Positions 10,448 to 26,995 of a stretch of DNA of 59,213 nt are shown in pieces. Where the stretch lies: assembly GCF_002300555.2 (NCBI RefSeq), contig NZ_NTHN02000031.1, positions 1 through 59,213 on the forward strand, given 5' to 3'. Numbering within the stretch: the stretch's first letter is position 1; each line of letters opens with the position of its first letter. Both the position numbers and the translations under genes were made by a program. The notes under the pieces are model-generated. The model searched no databases. It had not been told where the DNA came from and saw only the letters and a program-made list of their open reading frames with translations. This DNA comes from Alloyangia mangrovi (GTDB taxonomy: Bacteria; Pseudomonadota; Alphaproteobacteria; Rhodobacterales; Rhodobacteraceae).

Positions 10448-11800
10448 TTACCAGCGGCGCTCGAACTTGCGGCGCAGCACGATGGCAATCAGGTTCATGG
10501 CGAGCAGGAACAGCAGCAGGACGATGATCCCGCCCCAGGCCCGCTCGTAATAGGCCGGATCGGCGCGCTTGGCCCATTCGTAGATCTGCGCGGGCATCGC
10601 CGAGTTCGGCGACAGGAAGCCCGAGAAGACCCCTTCGGGATAGTTGGTGGCGATATAGCCGACCATGCCGATCAGCAGCAGCGGCGCGGTTTCGCCGAGC
10701 GCCTGCGCGAGGCCGATGATGGTGCCGGTCAGGATGCCGGGCATGGCGAGCGGCAGCACGTGGTGAAAGGTGGCCTGCATCTTCGAAGCGCCCACGCCGA
10801 GCGCAGCGTCGCGGATCGACGGCGGCACTGCCTTGAGCGCGGCCCGGGTCGAGATCACGATCGTCGGCAGGGTCATCAACGTCAGCGTCAGGCCGCCTAC
10901 CAGAGGCGCGGATTGCGGCAAATGCGCGAATTGGATGAAGGCCGCGAGGCCGAGGATGCCGAAAACGATCGAGGGCACCGCGGCGAGGTTCGAGATGTTC
11001 ACCTCGATGAAGTCGGTGAAGCGGTTGGTCGGGGCGAATTCCTCGAGGTAGATCGAGGCGGCGACGCCGATCGGCAGGGCCAGCAGCAGCACGGTGATCA
11101 TCATGAAGAGCGAGCCGAGCATCGACACGCCCAGACCGGCCTGCTCGGCGCGGCTTTCCGAGGCGTCGGCGCCGGTGATGAACTCCCAGTTGAAGCTCTT
11201 GTGGATGGTGCCCCCGGCGCGCAGCACGTCGACCAGGTCGAGATGTGCGGCGTCGATGTTCTTGTCCTGGGCGATGCTCTCGCGGCTGACACGGCCCTTG
11301 AGGTAGCCGTCGACGCGGCTCGAGGCGAGGATCTGGAAGTCCACCGTCTCACCGACGCGGTCGGGGTTGGCCAGGACCCAGTCGCGCACCTTGGCGGCGG
11401 CCGAGGCCGAGATCATCTGCTTGACGTCGCCGCCATCCTCGAACTCGGTCTGCGCGCCGCTGTCGACGATGACCTTCCACAGTGAGTTCTGGATCAGCGG
11501 GCTGTAGCCGAAGGTCGAGACCTTGGCCATCTCCGCCGGGTCGCGGTTGCCGGTCTTGTCGAGCTTGGCTTCCTCCAAATAGACCGGCACCTCGATGAAG
11601 GTCTGCTGGAAGGCGCCGATGCCATTAGCAAGGATCGAACCCAGCAGCACCACGAGGAAGAACACCCCCGCTCCGATGGCGGCAAGTCCGTACAGGCGGA
11701 AGCGCTTCTCGGAGGCATTGCGCTTCTTGGTGCGCGCATCGACGGTCAGCAGGCCATGCTTGGCGGGCTCCTTGCCGCCGGTATAGGTCGCGTCGGTCAT
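10448..11800 (-). CDS. pstA: Phosphate ABC transporter permease PstA
   Basis: This inner-membrane permease of the Pst importer is 450 residues long, well over the roughly 300 of enterobacterial PstA. The extra length is an insert of about 150-170 residues between the first helix (about residues 33-55) and the permease core, as is usual in alphaproteobacteria. The core carries the cytoplasmic EAA loop SIRDAALGVGASKMQATFHHVLPLAMPGI, which contacts PstB. ATG and the pstC stop overlap by one base (TGATG), showing coupling. Confidence 0.94.
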   Translation of the reverse strand: MTDATYTGGKEPAKHGLLTVDARTKKRNASEKRFRLYGLAAIGAGVFFLVVLLGSILANGIGAFQQTFIEVPVYLEEAKLDKTGNRDPAEMAKVSTFGYSPLIQNSLWKVIVDSGAQTEFEDGGDVKQMISASAAAKVRDWVLANPDRVGETVDFQILASSRVDGYLKGRVSRESIAQDKNIDAAHLDLVDVLRAGGTIHKSFNWEFITGADASESRAEQAGLGVSMLGSLFMMITVLLLALPIGVAASIYLEEFAPTNRFTDFIEVNISNLAAVPSIVFGILGLAAFIQFAHLPQSAPLVGGLTLTLMTLPTIVISTRAALKAVPPSIRDAALGVGASKMQATFHHVLPLAMPGILTGTIIGLAQALGETAPLLLIGMVGYIATNYPEGVFSGFLSPNSAMPAQIYEWAKRADPAYYERAWGGIIVLLLFLLAMNLIAIVLRRKFERRW

Positions 11801-13263
11801 CAGTCGTACTGCTCCCGGTATTTGCGCACGATGAAGAGCGCGAAGACGTTGAGGCCGAGGGTCATGACGAAGAGCGTCATGCCGAGGGCGAAGGCCACCA
11901 GCGCCTCGGGCGAGGCGAAGTCCGCGTCGCCGGTCAGCTGGCTGACGATCTTGGCGGTGACGGTGGTCATGGCGTCGAAGGGGTTGAGCGAGAGCCGTGC
12001 GGCGGCCCCTGCCCCCATCACCACGATCATCGTCTCGCCGATGGCGCGCGAGGCAGCGAGCAGGATGGCGCCGACGATGCCCGGCAGGGCGGCGGGCAGG
12101 ATCACCTGCTTGATGGTCTCGGACTTGGTGGCGCCAAGCCCGTAGGAGCCGTCACGCAGCGACTGCGGCACGGCATTGATGATGTCATCCGACAGCGAGC
12201 TGACGAAGGGGATGAGCATGATGCCCATCACGAGGCCCGCGGTCATCACCGCGGTGCCCGCCTGCATCCACCCGAGCCCGTCGCGGCCGAAAACCGACAG
12301 CAGCAGCGGGCCGACCGTCAGCAGCGCGAAGAGGCCGTAGACGATGGTCGGGATGCCGGCCAGCAGCTCCAGCGCGGGCTTGGCCACGGCACGGAACTTC
12401 GGCCCGGCGTATTCCGACAGGTAGACGGCGGCAAACAGGCCGATCGGCACCGACACCAGCAGCGCGATGAGCGAGATGTAGAGCGTGCCCCAGAGCAGCG
12501 GCCAGATGCCGAGCTGCGAGCCGCCGCCGAAGCTCGGCGACCAGGTGAAGGAGCCGAAGAATTCCGAGGCCGGGTAGATGCGGAAGAACTCGATGGTGTT
12601 GAAGACCAGGGACAGCACAATGCCGATGGTGGTCAGGATGGCGAGCGAGGCGGCACCGACGAGGATCGCGCGGATGCCGCGCTCAACGGCGTTGCGGGCG
12701 CGGAAGTCGGGGTTGGTTTGGGCCAGCGCCAGCGCGCCGCCGATCAGCCCCAGGCCGATCACGACGATCGAGCGCAGCAGGTCGCCGGTAGCGTTGGTGC
12801 TGCGGTAGCTCTGCGCCGCGGCCAGCACCTCGGGGGTGATCTCGGTGCCCACGGCGACCCCGGCGGAGCCCAGCATGGCGCGGATGTCCGAGCCGCCGAC
12901 GGTGAGCGTGGCGGCGTCGCCAGCGCTCAGCAGCCCCTGGGCGACGGAGAGGTCGAGGCCATCGGCCACCCGCCGCACGTCGGACATGACGAGGCCGAGG
13001 GTCGACCCCTCGGGGATCGCGCTCTCGGGCAGCAGGCTGGTGGCCTTGGTGTTCACGATGAAGGGTTGCGCGATCAGCCAGACGATCAGCACAAGAAAGG
13101 CCGGCACCATCACCTTCATGGCGACGTTCCAGCCGTAGTAACTCGGCAGCGAGTGCAGTGCGCGACGATCGTCTCCGGCGCCGGATATGGCGCGCGCGCG
13201 CCCCGCGACATAGCCCGCGACGGCCAGCGCGAGGACGATCAGGATCAGCCAAAGAACAGGCAT
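11800..13263 (-). CDS. pstC: Phosphate ABC transporter permease PstC
   Basis: PstC is the second permease subunit, forming the channel with PstA. At 487 residues it is longer than the roughly 320 of E. coli, because of about 170 extra residues between N-terminal helices and the core (SLLPESAIPEGSTLGLVMSDVRR and following). The C-terminal permease domain has the EAA loop SLRDGSYGLGATKSETIKQVILPAALPGI. It starts 91 nt after pstS, beyond an intercistronic terminator hairpin, and overlaps pstA by one base. Confidence 0.94.
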   Translation of the reverse strand: MPVLWLILIVLALAVAGYVAGRARAISGAGDDRRALHSLPSYYGWNVAMKVMVPAFLVLIVWLIAQPFIVNTKATSLLPESAIPEGSTLGLVMSDVRRVADGLDLSVAQGLLSAGDAATLTVGGSDIRAMLGSAGVAVGTEITPEVLAAAQSYRSTNATGDLLRSIVVIGLGLIGGALALAQTNPDFRARNAVERGIRAILVGAASLAILTTIGIVLSLVFNTIEFFRIYPASEFFGSFTWSPSFGGGSQLGIWPLLWGTLYISLIALLVSVPIGLFAAVYLSEYAGPKFRAVAKPALELLAGIPTIVYGLFALLTVGPLLLSVFGRDGLGWMQAGTAVMTAGLVMGIMLIPFVSSLSDDIINAVPQSLRDGSYGLGATKSETIKQVILPAALPGIVGAILLAASRAIGETMIVVMGAGAAARLSLNPFDAMTTVTAKIVSQLTGDADFASPEALVAFALGMTLFVMTLGLNVFALFIVRKYREQYD

Positions 13264-13307
13264 CGGGCCCCCAGGTTAGTCCGGTGATCACTCACCAAAA
13301 AGGAAAA

Positions 13308-13334
13308 CGGAGGGCAGCACGAAGCCGCCCTCCG
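13308..13334 (-). terminator. Intercistronic terminator between pstS and pstC
   Basis: On the minus strand CGGAGGGCGGC / GCTGCCCTCCG (11 bp, one G-T) closes a TTCGT loop and is followed by TTTTCCTTTTTGG. It lies 20 nt past the pstS stop. Partial read-through would make much more PstS than permease or ATPase. Confidence 0.8.
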
Positions 13335-13354
13335 GACATTGGACCTGCGTCCAA

Positions 13355-14395
13355 TTACATGCTTTCGCCCATGGTCACTTCGTCGGCAACCTTGGCTTGG
13401 GTGTCGGCCAGCTCGGGGTCGGACACGAGGCCGTAGTTGGAGAGCGGGCCATCGGGGCCGGCGATTTCGTCGGCGACGAAGAACTCGGCGAACTCCTTCA
13501 GGCCGGGGATGACGCCGATGTGGGCCTTCTTGATGTAGAAGTACAGCGGACGCGACACCGGGTAGTCGCCCGCGGCGATGGTTTCGGTCGAGGGCTCGAC
13601 GCCGGACATGGTCGCGACCTTGAGCTTGTCGGTGTTGTTCTCGTAGAATGCCAGGCCGAAGACGCCGACACCGTTCGAGTTGCTGTCGATGCGGGCGAGG
13701 GTCTCGGTGTAGTCGCCATCGATGTCGACCGACTTGCCGTCGGTGCGGACCGAGATGCAGGCGGCTTCGGCGTCGTCTTCCGACATGCCCGAAGCGACCA
13801 TGGCTTCCAGCGCGCCGGTGGCTTCGCAGCCAGCCGCCAGCACCTTTTCTTCGAAAACTTCGCGGGTGCCGTGCTTGGTGCCCGGGATAAAGGCCGCGAT
13901 CTCGACGTCCGGCAGATCGGCGTTGAACTCGGACCACTTGGTGTAGGGGTTGTCGACCAGCTCGCCGTCTTTCACGACTTTCGGTGCGAGCGCGTTGTAC
14001 CAGTCGGCCGGCTCGAAGGCGGTGAACTCGGGGCCGGTCTTCTGCGAGGCGAAGACGATGCCGTCATAGCCGATGCGCACTTCGATGATGTCGGTCACGC
14101 CGGCGTCGGCGCAGGCCTTGATCTCTTTGTCCTTGATCGCGCGCGAGGCGTTCGCGATGTCGATGGTGTTCTCGCCAACGCCTTCGCAGAAGCGCTTCAG
14201 GCCAGCCGAGGAGCCGCCCGATTCCACGACGGGGGTCGGGAAGTCGAAGTTCTCGCCGAAGGCTTCGGCGACGATCGAGGCGTAGGGCAGCACGGTCGAC
14301 GAGCCGGCAACCTGCACGTTGTCACGTGCGGCAGCAGCGGTGGCCGAAGCAGCGGCGAGCGCGAGTGCCGAAACGGCGAGTTTCACGGATTGCAT
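13355..14395 (-). CDS. pstS: Phosphate ABC transporter substrate-binding protein PstS
   Basis: This periplasmic phosphate-binding protein has 346 residues including a Sec signal peptide (MQSVKLAVSALALAAASATAAAA, cleavage near residue 23). Family motifs are VAGSSTVLPYASIVAEAF at the mature N-terminus, ESGGSSAGLKRFCEG and IDIANASRAIK, followed by DNPYTKWSEFN and FIPGTKHGTREVFEE, which form the phosphate pocket. A three-repeat Pho box lies 78-110 nt before the ATG. The gene leads the pst operon and is separated from pstC by a terminator. Confidence 0.96.
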   Translation of the reverse strand: MQSVKLAVSALALAAASATAAAARDNVQVAGSSTVLPYASIVAEAFGENFDFPTPVVESGGSSAGLKRFCEGVGENTIDIANASRAIKDKEIKACADAGVTDIIEVRIGYDGIVFASQKTGPEFTAFEPADWYNALAPKVVKDGELVDNPYTKWSEFNADLPDVEIAAFIPGTKHGTREVFEEKVLAAGCEATGALEAMVASGMSEDDAEAACISVRTDGKSVDIDGDYTETLARIDSNSNGVGVFGLAFYENNTDKLKVATMSGVEPSTETIAAGDYPVSRPLYFYIKKAHIGVIPGLKEFAEFFVADEIAGPDGPLSNYGLVSDPELADTQAKVADEVTMGESM

Positions 14396-14472
14396 AGGAA
14401 TGCTCCTGTTGGGTCAGATACAGCCCCCCGGTCGGGGACCTCGAGGCGGTGCCTAGGCGTCGTGCGCAATGC

Positions 14473-14505
14473 TTTTGTGACATCTGCGTAACAATTTCAT
14501 GACAG
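14473..14505 (-). promoter_or_regulatory. Three-repeat Pho box upstream of pstS
   Basis: On the minus strand three direct repeats with an 11-nt period are seen: CTGTCATGAAA (14495-14505), TTGTTACGCAG (14484-14494) and ATGTCACAAAA (14473-14483). The PhoB half-site is CTGTCAT-like with 11-nt spacing, so this is an extended binding site. It could also influence the divergent ParB-like gene. Confidence 0.85.
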
Positions 14506-14632
14506 CGTGCGTTAAGCTGCATTTCAAGCCTCGAGGCACTCCACTTTGGTGCGAAGTTTAACTCCGTAACACCACCCGAAGTGTAGCCTCTGCCTGCGGA
14601 TCGCCGCTTTTTACAGCGAGGGTTTTGACTGC

Positions 14633-21572: not shown

Positions 21573-22487
21573 CTATTCCGCAGCGATCGGCAGCGGCTGC
21601 ATTTCCTGCAGCACCGGGTGGAATTCCTTCTGCGTGCCGGCATAGGCCAGCGTTGCGCGCAGCATCCCCGCCTTCGAGCCGCAATCGAAGCGATCGCCCG
21701 AGAAGCGGAAGCCACAGAGTCCGACCTTCCCTGCGCCGAGAGCAATGGCATCGGTCAGCTGGATCTCCCCGCCGAGGCCCGCCGGAAGACCGTCCAGATC
21801 GGCGAAGATCGACTCGTCGAGCACGTAGCGGCCAACCACCGCCTGCAGCGACGGCGCTTTCTCCGCCTCGGGCTTCTCGACCATGCCGGACGCGCGCAGC
21901 ATCTGGCCATCTGCCTCGCCCTCGGGGACAAGCACGCCATAGGCCGAGACCTCGTCACGCTTGACTTCCATGGTTGCGACCATGTGGCCCGGCGCGCTGG
22001 TCTCATAGGCCGCGATCATTTCCGACAGGCAGCCCGGCTCGCCGATGATCAGGTCGTCGGGCAGGATCACCGCGACCGGACCCGGCAGCGCATGCTCGGC
22101 AGCGCAGAGCACCGCGTGGCCAAGACCCAGCGGCTCGGGCTGCATGACGAAGAAGACCTGCTCCTCGTCGGGATTGATGGCCGCCTTGTGGAGCGTGTCG
22201 GCGATCTGGTGCTTGCCGCGCTCGCGCAGCGTGGCGCAGAGGTCGTGGTCCTGATGCACGTAGCGCTCGATGGCGCTCTTGCTGGGGTGCGACACGAAGA
22301 TCATGCGCTCAATCCCGGCAGCGCGCGCCTCGTCGATGGCGAACTGCAGCAGCGGCTTGTCGAGCACCGGCAGCAGCTCTTTGGGCGTGGCCTTGGTCGC
22401 GGGCAGGAAACGCGTGCCGAGGCCGGCAACGGGGAAGATCGCAGTACGGACTTTGGACTTGCTGCTCTTCATCTCGGGCGTGCTCAC
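21573..22487 (-). CDS. galU: UTP--glucose-1-phosphate uridylyltransferase
   Basis: GalU makes UDP-glucose from UTP and glucose-1-phosphate. The 304-residue product has the nucleotide-binding signature FPVAGLGTRFLPATKATPKELLPVLDKPLLQFAIDEA near residue 16. Later motifs are FVMQPEPLGLGHAV, VILPDDLI and VGRYVLDESIFADL. The GTG at 22487 is chosen because AAAGGAGA lies 8 nt upstream; ATG 22472 is an alternative, and the longer open frame to 22604 is not family-like. It is transcribed divergently from the glucosylglycerol operon. Confidence 0.93.
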   Translation of the reverse strand: MSTPEMKSSKSKVRTAIFPVAGLGTRFLPATKATPKELLPVLDKPLLQFAIDEARAAGIERMIFVSHPSKSAIERYVHQDHDLCATLRERGKHQIADTLHKAAINPDEEQVFFVMQPEPLGLGHAVLCAAEHALPGPVAVILPDDLIIGEPGCLSEMIAAYETSAPGHMVATMEVKRDEVSAYGVLVPEGEADGQMLRASGMVEKPEAEKAPSLQAVVGRYVLDESIFADLDGLPAGLGGEIQLTDAIALGAGKVGLCGFRFSGDRFDCGSKAGMLRATLAYAGTQKEFHPVLQEMQPLPIAAE

Positions 22488-22921
22488 GTCGTGGTCTCCT
22501 TTCGACAGCCTGATCGAGGCCGATGGAATATGGGCCGCATCTTCGCCCGGGCGCCGGAGGCGCATCCGCTGCGTTGCGGCGAATAGGTAAGAGCGTATGG
22601 CCATTTTTGCTCAGGTCAAATCCAGGCACTCGCACGTGAGCGGCGGACCGCCCAAGCCATTGTATTTGCGTAGGTGATGAGAACGCGCAAAGGGCTAATC
22701 TGGTTCCATGCCTAAAATTTAATCACAACCGGAAGGGGAAAACATCCCTTTGCCGACAGGGGTTTGGCTGAAATTCATCTCGCAACTGCAGAAAAAACCC
22801 GCGCCCGGCGGTGGCCATCGGGGAACAATCCCCTATTGTCAGCGTTATCACGCAAACAAAGACGGAGAGAGCCCTCAGGGCCGTCAACGGTGCCAATTTA
22901 GGCAGCGGCCCCACATGTGTC
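22488..22921. other. Divergent intergenic region galU / gpsA-ggp operon
   Basis: No gene is seen in 434 nt. It must hold promoters of galU and of the glucosylglycerol operon. Short hairpins can be drawn (GGGG-aacaat-CCCC near 22829-22842), but no regulator site could be named. An in-frame extension of the downstream gene back to 22811 is not homologous to the family. Confidence 0.45.
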
Positions 22922-24058
22922 ATGGACGGACAGAGCATGCAAACCCCGCCCGCGCAGCCACGCAGCCTCACCGGCCCGCGCCGCGCCACGCCCTACTCCC
23001 GCCTCACGGTGATCGGCATGGGGAGCTGGGGGACTGCCCTCGCTGCCACTGCAGCCCGCGCCGGGTGCGAGACCCGGATATGGGGACGCCGACCTGATCT
23101 CGCCCGCGCCATGGCCGAGACCGGCGAGAACCCCGACCACCTGCCCGGGATCAAACTACCCGCTACGCTCCGGCCCACGTCGGACTTGCGCGAGGCGCTC
23201 GACGGCGCCGAGGCGGTTCTGCTGGTCACCCCCTCCCACACGCTGCGCGACGTTGCCCGCTCGATGCGGGACTATCTCCCGGCCGGCATCCCGCTGGCGC
23301 TTTGCTGCAAGGGCATCGAACGCGGCACCGGCTACCTGCTGAGCCATGTGGTCGAGGAGGAGCTTCCCGGCCATCCGGTCGGCGCACTTTCCGGTCCGAC
23401 CTTTGCCACCGAGACCGCGCTCGGCCATCCGACCGCCGCCACTGTGGCCTTCACCTTCAGCCATCACGATCGCATTGAGCCGGAAAAGGCTCCCGCCGCC
23501 CGGCTGGCGCTGACCATGCAGACCGAGGCTTTCCGCCCCTATGTTTCCGACGATCTGGTCGGTGTCGAGGTCGGCGGCGCGGTGAAGAACGTTATCGCCA
23601 TCGCCTGTGGGATGATGACCGGCGCCGGCTTCGCCGAGAACACCCGTGCCGCGCTGATCACCCGCGGAATGGACGAGATGAAGTTCCTCGCCGAGGCGCT
23701 AGGCGGACGTCGCGAGACGGTGACCGGCCTTTCCGGGGCCGGCGATCTGACGCTCACCTGCTCGTCGACCACCTCGCGCAACATGGCGCTCGGCACCCAG
23801 CTCGGGCGCGGACTGTCCCGCGACGAATGCTTCGACGGCAAGCCGGTGGTGGTCGAAGGAGAAATCAACGCGATCTCTGTGGTCGACCTTGCGCGGCGCC
23901 TCGGCGTCAGCATGCCGATCTGCGAGGCGGTGCATGCCGTCCTGCACGAGGGCGCGCCGCTCACCGCCACGTTCCAGCAACTCTGGGCCGCCCCGATCGA
24001 GGGCGAGCCCCGCGCGCTCGATCTATTCCTGCATCCCCACGAAGGAGACCCCGCATGA
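22922..24058 (+). CDS. gpsA: NAD(P)-dependent glycerol-3-phosphate dehydrogenase, linked to glucosylglycerol synthesis
   Basis: The enzyme reduces dihydroxyacetone phosphate to sn-glycerol-3-phosphate (cytosol). The roughly 378-residue product has the NAD-binding motif TVIGMGSWGTALA near residue 31 and a C-terminal domain with the catalytic Lys region GVEVGGAVKNVIAIACG. TRGMDEMKFLAEALGG and TGLSGAGDLTLTC follow. Its N-terminal 25 residues (to TPYSRL) are extra; ATG 22937 is an alternative start. It overlaps the ggpP start by 4 nt (24055-24058) and so belongs to the gpsA-ggpP-ggpS operon. It would supply the acceptor for GgpS, and a second housekeeping gpsA elsewhere is likely (inference). Confidence 0.9.
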   Translation: MDGQSMQTPPAQPRSLTGPRRATPYSRLTVIGMGSWGTALAATAARAGCETRIWGRRPDLARAMAETGENPDHLPGIKLPATLRPTSDLREALDGAEAVLLVTPSHTLRDVARSMRDYLPAGIPLALCCKGIERGTGYLLSHVVEEELPGHPVGALSGPTFATETALGHPTAATVAFTFSHHDRIEPEKAPAARLALTMQTEAFRPYVSDDLVGVEVGGAVKNVIAIACGMMTGAGFAENTRAALITRGMDEMKFLAEALGGRRETVTGLSGAGDLTLTCSSTTSRNMALGTQLGRGLSRDECFDGKPVVVEGEINAISVVDLARRLGVSMPICEAVHAVLHEGAPLTATFQQLWAAPIEGEPRALDLFLHPHEGDPA

Positions 24059-24831
24059 GCCTCGATACCACGAAGGCCCGAGACATCGCCACCTGCCGCT
24101 TCGTGCTGGCCACCGATCTCGACGGAACCTTCCTCGGGGGCTCCGATGCGGACCGGGGAACGCTTTACAACTGGATCGAAGCTAACCGCGACACCGTGGG
24201 GCTGATCTTCGTCACCGGCCGCGACCCGCGCTTCATCCGCGAGCTCTGCGAAGGCGGCGTGCCCTGGCCCGAGTTTGTCGTCGGCGATGTCGGCACCACC
24301 ATCGCCGAGGTCGTGGACAGCGAGATCCATCCCATCGAGCCGCTCGAGGAAGAGATCGCCGCGACCTGGGGAAACGCCGGGGACAGCGTCCGCGCCGCGC
24401 TTCATGGCCATCCCGGCCTCTCGCTGCAGCCCACGGACTTCCGCTACCGCGTGAGCTACGATCTCGACGCCGATGCCTATGACGGCGCAGCCCACGACAA
24501 GGTGCGCGAAATGGGACATGACCCGCTCGTTTCGGACAACCGCTATTTCGACGTGCTGCCGCGCGGCGTCTCCAAGGGGCCGTCGCTGCGCCGCCTCGTG
24601 TCGCACCTGAAGATCGAGGAACGCCGGGTGCTGGCCGCGGGCGACACGCTGAACGATCTGTCGATGCTGCAATGCGGCCTGCCCGCCGTTGCCGTCGGCG
24701 GCGCCGAAACGGCGCTTCTCAAGGAGGTGAACGACCTGCCCCATGTCCACAAGGCCGAGCGCATCGGCGCCGCGGGCATCCTCGAGGCAATCCGCACCTT
24801 CCAAATGCACGACCTTCCGAAAGGAGCCTGA
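24055..24831 (+). CDS. HAD-family phosphatase, probable glucosylglycerol-phosphate phosphatase
   Basis: This 258-residue HAD hydrolase is of the sucrose-phosphate-phosphatase/trehalose-phosphatase type. Motif I is LATDLDGTFLGG with the nucleophile Asp near residue 22. Motif II is FVTGRDPRF, the conserved Lys lies in PRGVSKGPSLRRLV, and motif IV is VLAAGDTLNDLSML. The C2-type cap occupies about residues 85-185. It lies between gpsA (4-nt overlap) and ggpS (3-nt gap), so it most likely dephosphorylates glucosylglycerol-phosphate. A trehalose- or sucrose-phosphate phosphatase would look similar; the assignment rests on the GgpS neighbour. Confidence 0.8.
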   Translation: MSLDTTKARDIATCRFVLATDLDGTFLGGSDADRGTLYNWIEANRDTVGLIFVTGRDPRFIRELCEGGVPWPEFVVGDVGTTIAEVVDSEIHPIEPLEEEIAATWGNAGDSVRAALHGHPGLSLQPTDFRYRVSYDLDADAYDGAAHDKVREMGHDPLVSDNRYFDVLPRGVSKGPSLRRLVSHLKIEERRVLAAGDTLNDLSMLQCGLPAVAVGGAETALLKEVNDLPHVHKAERIGAAGILEAIRTFQMHDLPKGA

Positions 24832-24834
24832 CCC

Positions 24835-26352
24835 ATGCCCAGTGATCTGGTCATCGTCTACCACCGCCAGCCTTACGAAGAGGTCGAGGTGGATGGAAAG
24901 ATCGAATACCGCGAGAACAAGAGCCCGAACGGCATCGTCCCCACGCTGAAGAGCTTCTTCGGCTCGGTGGACAAGGCTGCCTGGGTCGCGTGGAAGGAGG
25001 CCGTGGATCCCTCGAACCCCGGCTTCGACCGCGTCGTCGAGATCGAGGACAGCTTCGGCAAGTACACCGTCTCGCGCCTGCCGCTTACCGCCGAGCAGGT
25101 GCGCAGCTTCTATCACATCACCTCGAAGGAGGCCTTCTGGCCGATCCTCCACGGCTTCAAGGAGAAGTACAACTACGACCCGGTGGACTGGCCGACTTTC
25201 CGCGCGGTGAACTGGGCCTTCGCCGAGGCGGCCGCGGCAGAGGCGGCGCATGGCGCGTCGGTCTGGGTGCACGACTACAACCTGTGGCTGGTGCCGGGCT
25301 ACCTGCGCCAGATGCGTCCCGACCTGCGCATCTCCTTCTACCACCACACGCCCTTCCCTGCCGCTGACATGTTCAACGTGTTGCCCTGGCGCGGCGAGAT
25401 CATCGACTCGCTCCTGGCCGCCGATGTGGTGGGTTTCCATATCCCGCGCTACGCCTCGAACTTCCTCAGCTGCGTGCGCAGCCTGCGCGACGTCGGCCAG
25501 GTACCGCGCGACAAGGTGGCCGAGGACATGATGTCCGAAGGCTCGGCCTTGTCCGACCGCACCGTGCCGACCGAAATCCATCTCGAGAGCGGCCACGTGG
25601 TGCATCTGGGCGTGACCCCGGTGGGGGTCGACGTGGACTACATCAAGGGGCTCGCTGCCACCGAGGATACCGACAAACTTGCCACCCGCTTCCGCTCGGA
25701 GATCGGCGACGGCAAGCTGCTGCTCTCGGTCGGACGCACTGATTACACCAAGGGCGGCGCCGACCAGCTCCTGGCCTTCGAGCGCCTGCTGGAACGCCGC
25801 CCCGAACTGCGCGGCCAGGTCCGCCTGTTGCATGTCTCGGTTCCGGCCAACCGCAACATGACCGTCTACGAGCCGATCCAGAAGGAGCTCGAGGAGATCG
25901 CCGGCCGGATCAACGGCCGCTTCGGCAGCTTCACCTTCCAGCCCTGCGCGTTGATCTCGCGCGCCATCCCCTTCGTCGAGTTGGTGGCCTGGTACCAGGT
26001 GGCCGACGTTGCCTGGATCACGCCGCTGGCAGACGGGATGAACCTCGTGTGCAAGGAATACGTGGCCTCGCGCAAGGATGGCGACGGCGTGCTGGTGCTC
26101 TCGGAATTCGCCGGCGCGGCAGTCGAACTGGGGGCCGCGGTGCTCACCAACCCCTGGTCGACCCGCGCCATGGATTTCGCCATCGACCTCGCGCTCGACA
26201 TGCCCGAGGAGGAGCGCCGTGCCCGCATGACCCTCCTGCGCGCTGCAGTCGAGAAGCGCGACACCCGGCACTGGGCCTCGGACCAGCTGTCGTTGCTCTC
26301 GCCCGAGGACTTCGGCAAGAGGGCGAAAAAGGGCAAGATCGAAGCCGCCTGA
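24835..26352 (+). CDS. ggpS: Glucosylglycerol-phosphate synthase
   Basis: GgpS transfers glucose from ADP-glucose to glycerol-3-phosphate, giving glucosylglycerol-phosphate, the precursor of a compatible solute. The 505-residue GT20 enzyme starts LVIVYHRQPYEE and continues SPNGIVPTLKSFFGSVDKAAWVAWKE. FYHITSKEAFWPILHGF, WVHDYNLWLVPGYLRQ and YHHTPFPAADMFNVLPWR follow, and later WITPLADGMNLVCKEYV and VLSEFAGAAVEL. HDYNLW instead of the HDYHL of trehalose-phosphate synthase, the YHRxPYxE N-terminus and HITSKEAFWP separate it from OtsA. It is the last gene of the operon, ending 16 nt before a 19-bp terminator stem. Confidence 0.92.
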   Translation: MPSDLVIVYHRQPYEEVEVDGKIEYRENKSPNGIVPTLKSFFGSVDKAAWVAWKEAVDPSNPGFDRVVEIEDSFGKYTVSRLPLTAEQVRSFYHITSKEAFWPILHGFKEKYNYDPVDWPTFRAVNWAFAEAAAAEAAHGASVWVHDYNLWLVPGYLRQMRPDLRISFYHHTPFPAADMFNVLPWRGEIIDSLLAADVVGFHIPRYASNFLSCVRSLRDVGQVPRDKVAEDMMSEGSALSDRTVPTEIHLESGHVVHLGVTPVGVDVDYIKGLAATEDTDKLATRFRSEIGDGKLLLSVGRTDYTKGGADQLLAFERLLERRPELRGQVRLLHVSVPANRNMTVYEPIQKELEEIAGRINGRFGSFTFQPCALISRAIPFVELVAWYQVADVAWITPLADGMNLVCKEYVASRKDGDGVLVLSEFAGAAVELGAAVLTNPWSTRAMDFAIDLALDMPEEERRARMTLLRAAVEKRDTRHWASDQLSLLSPEDFGKRAKKGKIEAA

Positions 26353-26367
26353 GCGCCACCACGCATC

Positions 26368-26410
26368 ACGCGAACGCCCCGCCATGACATCCATGGCGGG
26401 GCGTTCGCGT
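26368..26410. terminator. Perfect 19-bp bidirectional terminator hairpin
   Basis: ACGCGAACGCCCCGCCATG (26368-26386) pairs without mismatch with 26392-26410 around a 5-nt loop. It lies between converging ggpS and the DUF4174 gene and has no T tract on either side. Confidence 0.7.
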
Positions 26411-26432
26411 CACGGTCAAGGCGCGCTGGCCG

Positions 26433-26873
26433 TCAGTCCATCATCTCCCGCTGGCGCATCGGCATCTGGTCGATCACGGCGAAAAGCTGAGCGGGTGCCA
26501 GCACCGTATCCTCCTCGAGCTTCACACCGCCGTCCTTGCCGACGAGCACCAGCTTGAACCCGCCGGGGGAGAAGGCCTGCCGGATCGGACCGGGGTTGCG
26601 CGGTTCGAGATCGCTGAGCACGACGATGTCGCGGGCGCGCAGCTCTTCCTCGGCGTCGCGAAAAAGGGCCATCTGCCGCTCGTAGCTGTCGTCCCCCGCC
26701 GCCGGGGCAAAGAGGAGCACCGGGCGCGCCGACCAGCGGAGCTCGCCAAGGTCGCGCTGCTCGGCCGGCAGCGGGCGGAAGATATCCTGCTCGCCCGCAG
26801 CAAAGACCGGAGTGGCAAAGCTGGCAACGGCGGCAAGGCCGAAGCTCGTCAGCGGGATCGGGCGTCGTAGCAT
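26433..26873 (-). CDS. Periplasmic DUF4174-family protein
   Basis: This 146-residue secreted protein has a Sec signal peptide (SFGLAAVASFATPVFA, cleavage near residue 26). The mature part is a small alpha/beta domain (ELRWSARPVLLFAPAAGDDSYERQMALF, RDIVVLSDLEP, KLVLVGKDGGVKLEE) with a thioredoxin-like secondary-structure pattern but no CxxC. It matches the DUF4174 family, whose function is unknown. It stands alone between a bidirectional terminator and the DAHP synthase gene. Confidence 0.75.
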   Translation of the reverse strand: MLRRPIPLTSFGLAAVASFATPVFAAGEQDIFRPLPAEQRDLGELRWSARPVLLFAPAAGDDSYERQMALFRDAEEELRARDIVVLSDLEPRNPGPIRQAFSPGGFKLVLVGKDGGVKLEEDTVLAPAQLFAVIDQMPMRQREMMD

Positions 26874-26995
26874 CTGCGGTCTCCGTGTCGGTGTCCATGT
26901 CCTTCACGAAACCTACGCGCCAGCGCAGGGTTTGGTTCTCTGCCAGTTCCGCGAGCGGCGGAGCCCCGCCGGCGCGATCCGAGGCACCCAAAAGA

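Follow-up and report, generated by a model that had tools for sequence, protein, structure and literature searches.

The window analysed here is a stretch of 59,213 nucleotides (nt; positions 1 to 59,213 of contig NZ_NTHN02000031.1) of the marine bacterium Alloyangia mangrovi (Rhodobacteraceae), from a genome of 5.53 Mb in 169 contigs that is 99% complete. Three adjoining genes lie on its forward strand: a paralogue of gpsA for a NAD(P)H-dependent glycerol-3-phosphate dehydrogenase that would supply the acceptor (22922-24058; 378 amino acids, aa), a gene for a predicted glucosylglycerol-phosphate phosphatase of the S6PP-type HAD-IIB group (24055-24831; 258 aa), and ggpS, for a glucosylglycerol-phosphate synthase of family GT20 (24835-26352; 505 aa). 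An earlier note, made from the letters of the window, had called these three open reading frames (ORFs), and their coordinates and strand were confirmed, as were the 4-nt overlap between gpsA and the phosphatase gene (24055-24058), the 3-nt gap between the phosphatase and GT20 genes (24832-24834) and a divergent galU on the minus strand (21573-22604). We propose that the three genes very probably constitute a glucosylglycerol biosynthesis operon, most likely one driven by the general stress response.

The GT20 protein scores 643.2 bits against the GgpS equivalog model TIGR02398 (cut-off 569), whereas every OtsA model stays below its cut-off (TIGR02400, 400.3 bits against 564.85). The sequences YHRQPYEE and HDYNLW, which the earlier note took for signatures of GgpS, are both present. 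All 24 other non-fused GgpS rows and all 5 fused ones share the asparagine of HDYN, which none of the 11 OtsA rows has. The phylogeny that the note had proposed, with clustering with OtsA as a refutation of its reading, was built with 41 rows of non-cyanobacterial GgpS (fused ones included) and OtsA. A 100/100 branch separates the 30 GgpS-type rows (fused included) from the 11 OtsA rows, and the 24835-26352 product groups with the alphaproteobacterial GgpS and the fused GgpPS, away from OtsA. Its nearest named relative is that of Alloyangia pacifica (96%), followed by Salipiger.

These results bear on the alternative of an OtsBA-like operon, in which the GT20 enzyme would make trehalose-6-phosphate, the phosphatase would release trehalose and gpsA would be an unrelated passenger. 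The GT20 family is common to both readings, the best solved relatives of the synthase are trehalose-phosphate synthases, and the OtsA model does match the window protein at 400 bits. That match is nevertheless below the cut-off of 565 while the GgpS cut-off is passed, the synthase lies away from OtsA in the tree, the phosphatase matches S6PP with no trehalose-phosphatase model among its listed curated-model and Pfam matches, and gpsA is kept alongside in 73 of 80 named loci (here and below, the best 80 of at least 546 confirmed loci, a set biased to close relatives). We consider such an operon highly improbable. The trehalose reading was rejected on model cut-offs and tree position, in keeping with the note's argument against trehalose synthesis. 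The window genome yielded no further GT20 gene, and one search of it for TreY gave nothing over the cut-off; TreS was not searched for.

The phosphatase had been described as a separate gene of the S6PP HAD type, and this description holds. It is encoded by its own ORF, a stop and the 3-nt gap separating it from the synthase, and its product scores 132.5 bits against PF05116 (S6PP; cut-off 20.3), also matches Hydrolase_3 in Pfam, and carries the HAD motifs DLDGT at residue 21 and GDTLND at residue 196. It fails both models of sucrose-phosphate phosphatase, TIGR01485 (59.4 bits, cut-off 183.65) and TIGR02471 (72.6 bits, cut-off 209.75). In a sample of 398 genomes of the phylum, 12 passed the GgpS cut-off: five with fused genes, six with split genes in Alphaproteobacteria and one with a split gene outside the class. 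The window phosphatase shows 34-44% identity with the N-terminal domain of each fused GgpPS in this sample. Because the phosphatase is homologous to this domain, the split genes found here and the gammaproteobacterial GgpPS fusion are, as judged by their likeness, two states of one phosphatase-synthase pair. The fused form is reported from the Gammaproteobacteria Pseudomonas, Marinobacter, Stenotrophomonas and Azotobacter (PMC10873239).

The operon GpsA scores 369 bits against NF000942 (cut-off 257), and PF01210 and PF07479 are both over their cut-offs. The search for a second gpsA, suggested in the earlier note, found one in the window genome that is 41% identical and stands on a different branch. 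In the GpsA tree (41 rows, midpoint root), the 17 operon copies fall in one 99/99 branch, which also holds two unlinked copies (loci L177 and L140), and the second GpsA of the window genome falls in another (100/98). Among 248 sampled genomes of the window's family, 41 pass the GgpS cut-off; two gpsA copies are present in 27 of these 41, versus two or more in 2 of the 207 others (G047, with broken gpsA and ggpS, and G049). This excess, although the counts treat related genomes as independent, supports an extra, pathway-linked gpsA copy. The other 14 ggpS-positive genomes have a single gpsA, in the operon in seven and away from ggpS in four (G002, G037, G179, G196); two lack a listed place (G072, G125), and one is cut by a contig end (G233). 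Since 21 of the 248 genomes showed no gpsA match at all, the first-pass search may have missed some copies. For 18 chosen genomes behind named loci, six of them picked for an operon without gpsA and one for a gpsA that is non-adjacent or absent, we find both GpsA types in six, the operon type only in six (in one case unlinked) and the other type only in six.

These patterns allow a second alternative, that glucosylglycerol synthesis stands and the operon GpsA is mainly a general supplier of glycerol-3-phosphate, as for phospholipids, and merely co-located. The operon type is the sole PF07479 gene in six of the 18 genomes (G640, G643, G646, G647, G648 and G650), unlinked to ggpS in G640; the sole gpsA match lies in the operon in G048, G066, G083, G150, G170, G183 and G211 (G170 and G646 have identical coordinates and are probably one assembly); and in G094 it is the only copy in a genome with no GgpS match. 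Against this stand the distant second gpsA of the window genome, the way in which second copies track ggpS across the family, and the tight overlap and conserved linkage of the operon gene, and we hold mere co-location to be unlikely. In G094 (locus L140) the operon-type GpsA looks capable of standing in for the housekeeping enzyme. Because the operon type is the sole GpsA in some genomes, strict dedication to the pathway is, by this gene content, not general.

The operon is widespread in Alphaproteobacteria and not an isolated find. The phosphatase gene lies directly 5' of ggpS in all 80 named loci, and gpsA directly 5' of the phosphatase gene in 73; where we searched with Pfam the nine ORFs 5' of the phosphatase gene in six of the seven loci without gpsA (L052, L062, L074, L080, L089, L097), no shared substitute gene was found. 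Two further alphaproteobacterial families (L201, L202) have the three-gene order too, and Tistrella, Dinoroseobacter shibae and Falsirhodobacter carry it on plasmids. Within the family, ggpS and otsA were not seen to exclude each other: 6 of the 41 ggpS-positive genomes have a second, below-cut-off GT20 match, which is about the chance level. Two loci deserve separate mention. At L208 (G047, contig C16, 3311-5868) the operon is decaying: gpsA and ggpS are both split over two frames, the phosphatase gene is open, and ggpS is matched over its first half only. At L062, a record titled Enemella evansiae carries the alphaproteobacterial operon at 70% identity, and the gpsA of this genome (G636) has the same place as in G002, a member of the window's family, so that G636 is probably mislabelled. 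No paper describing the three-gene operon, and none linking glucosylglycerol with EcfG, was found in the literature searched, which mostly lacked subscription papers and makes this absence weak. A glucosylglycerol-phosphate synthase is tabulated among high-pressure adaptation genes of Paraoceanicella profunda (PMC7002103). The pathway is known, and its arrangement and control appear to have been little noticed in this group.

The galU-like UTP-glucose-1-phosphate uridylyltransferase passes PF00483 and remains below the cut-off of TIGR01099 (261.9 bits against 326.8); the true start is probably further downstream than the listed one, because residue 52 is the first to match the GalU model. Whether this neighbour indicates the sugar donor is a question on which the evidence is divided. 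The Synechocystis GgpS is reported to need ADP-glucose (PMC6004087), and the window genome has a GlgC over the cut-off within a glg gene cluster, so that ADP-glucose may serve here as in the cyanobacterial enzyme, with galU incidental or belonging to exopolysaccharide synthesis. A galU homologue, however, adjoins the operon in 35 of the 80 named loci (in two of them downstream instead of divergent), often with the same promoter motif, a count uncorrected for shared ancestry, and a GlgC homologue is found in the flanks of one (L048). We give ADP-glucose about an even chance. Elsewhere in the window genome (L195, contig C103, 3223-4851), a GlgA match covers the first half of the profile only, which may indicate a frameshift, either in the gene itself or introduced by the assembly.

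The space between gpsA and galU contains two motifs of the type published for promoters of the general stress sigma factor EcfG, GGAAC-N16/17-CGTT (PMC7083833). One, with a spacer of 16 nt, precedes gpsA on the plus strand (22822-22846), and the other, with 17 nt, precedes galU on the minus strand (22707-22682). Among 11 near relatives (Salipiger, Alloyangia, Citreicella), nine keep an exact gpsA-side motif between -93 and -102, counted from the GpsA domain start, amid diverging spacer and flanking sequence; a tenth differs by one mismatch at this place, and the eleventh has no motif there. Upstream of gpsA the exact motif occurs in 12 of 76 loci, against a mean of 0.13 and a maximum of 2 for 300 permuted motifs, and with up to one mismatch in 27 of 76, against a mean of 3.5 and a maximum of 13. 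When 500 nt before the domain start were scanned and loci without gpsA were included, 15 of 83 loci had the motif, with one locus too short. Of 33 relatives with a divergent galU, 16 have the exact motif upstream of it, against a mean of 0.09 and a maximum of 2 for 200 permuted motifs. All these permutation tests treat related loci as independent. The recurrence of the motif before both gpsA and galU, far above permuted motifs and mostly in close relatives, is the new observation of this study. The window genome also has a NepR gene. Next to it lie a sigma-factor gene and a response-regulator gene related to those of D. shibae (70% and 66%, respectively), which we take to encode EcfG and PhyR, and an EcfG motif precedes the response-regulator gene of this cluster. 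On plasmid pDSHI02 of D. shibae (L129, 11998-15400), genes for a histidine kinase, sigma factor, NepR and response regulator stand about 1.5-4.9 kb 3' of ggpS, with a phospholipase D gene in between; no EcfG motif was found 5' of gpsA in D. shibae.

Family membership, a conserved gene order, a separate GpsA branch and recurring promoter motifs are present in the sequences themselves. From them we infer the reactions and the direction of flux: GpsA would convert dihydroxyacetone phosphate to glycerol-3-phosphate, GgpS would condense this with the glucose of a nucleotide sugar, yielding glucosylglycerol-phosphate, from which the S6PP-type phosphatase would release glucosylglycerol, a compatible solute that protects against salt. 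The operon and galU would both be transcribed by EcfG within the PhyR-NepR-EcfG system, and glucosylglycerol would accumulate under stress.

Several observations weigh against this interpretation. The enzyme activity and the solute are unreported for this clade in the literature searched, as far as the sources were available. For the single split GgpS from outside the class (L203), no gpsA match was obtained, and upstream of it lies only a phosphatase fragment of 111 aa scoring 53 bits. A gpsA match adjoining the phosphatase gene is lacking in 7 of the 80 named loci (L082 at a contig end), and several genomes have the operon-type GpsA as the sole GpsA found, so that its role may extend beyond the pathway. 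Of 76 loci, 64, that of D. shibae among them, lack the exact EcfG motif, and since 9 of the 12 loci with an exact gpsA-side motif are close relatives (Salipiger, Alloyangia, Citreicella), these are not independent; outside the near relatives the gpsA-side motif is weak. Genome-wide, the 83 occurrences barely exceed the 66 of a reversed control, so that the motif alone means little and its place and recurrence carry the argument. Finally, no gene for glucosylglycerol degradation was identified with confidence.

Candidates for breakdown were nevertheless considered. Near the operon, 6 of the 80 named loci and Tistrella carry a GH13 alpha-glucosidase-like gene (L097, L086, L100, L101, L103, L108 and L216), and a relative (63%) is present in the window genome (C103, L195, 18006-19667). 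The cluster was first flagged by a crude neighbour clustering disturbed by shadow ORFs of the high-GC DNA, and we regard the gene as a lead, a candidate for glucosylglycerol breakdown. As to a glucosylglycerol phosphorylase, the best sucrose-phosphorylase-type match in the window genome (C99) is below the cut-off and was rejected. This GH13 gene more likely belongs to a glucosylglycerate locus, because it stands beside genes resembling GpgS and mannosyl-3-phosphoglycerate phosphatase: the three lie together at L193 (C99; GpgS-like, phosphatase-like and sucrose-phosphorylase-like genes at 10757-12526, 12561-13790 and 13794-14582). The glucosyl-3-phosphoglycerate-synthase-like and phosphatase-like genes are both below their equivalog cut-offs, and L193 is a possible locus for glucosylglycerate, a second sugar-type solute.

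Between ggpS and the convergent gene beyond it lies the 19-base-pair (bp) terminator claimed in the earlier note. The inverted repeat is real (arms 26368-26386 and 26392-26410, 19 nt each, 100% complementary, 5-nt loop), and folding of 26350-26430 gives -52.5 kcal/mol (z = -6.2 against shuffles). As a probable, perhaps bidirectional, terminator it is plausible but non-canonical, because no T run follows it, the terminator scan does not list it, and it sits between convergent genes. An Rfam scan of 22300-26900 gave no match at gathering scores, and a sigma-70 scan found none on the operon strand.

Many cyanobacteria are described as having glucosylglycerol as a solute, and so are a few heterotrophs, in which the enzyme is fused (PMC10873239). 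If our interpretation is true, glucosylglycerol would also be a common solute of marine alphaproteobacteria, made by a three-gene split version whose GgpS is present in 41 of 248 family genomes, and the alphaproteobacterial general stress response would be linked to a second sugar-type solute. The operon would be a natural gene set in which the supply of the acceptor is coupled to synthesis, in line with a report of engineered production being limited by glycerol-3-phosphate supply (PMC8168540).

Three known systems can be compared with the operon. With GgpS and GgpP of Synechocystis it shares a synthase passing TIGR02398 and a separate phosphatase gene. The window phosphatase matches S6PP and Hydrolase_3 in Pfam, unlike cyanobacterial GgpP, which has its own Pfam family, one not among the matches of the window protein. 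A figure legend on cyanobacterial ggpS-gghA gene order names gpsA, glpD, glpK and gghA (PMC6753628). With the fused GgpPS, represented by five genes outside the class, it shares the order phosphatase to synthase, at 45-47% identity for the synthase and the 34-44% given above for the phosphatase. The fused form, however, is one polypeptide, whereas the window has two genes with gpsA in front, and the 12-kb region surrounding each of four fused genes (L204-L207) gave no gpsA match. The OtsBA of Bradyrhizobium is likewise a synthase and a phosphatase for a sugar-type solute, for which EcfG control is reported (PMC8092242); in the window that control is predicted from the motif alone, and acceptor and product differ. 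The most complete reading of these likenesses, which we put forward tentatively and with some doubt, is that galU and gpsA-phosphatase-ggpS may form a divergent general-stress regulon making glucosylglycerol from UDP-glucose and de novo glycerol-3-phosphate, a roseobacter counterpart of the EcfG-driven OtsBA and the split state of the GgpPS fusion.

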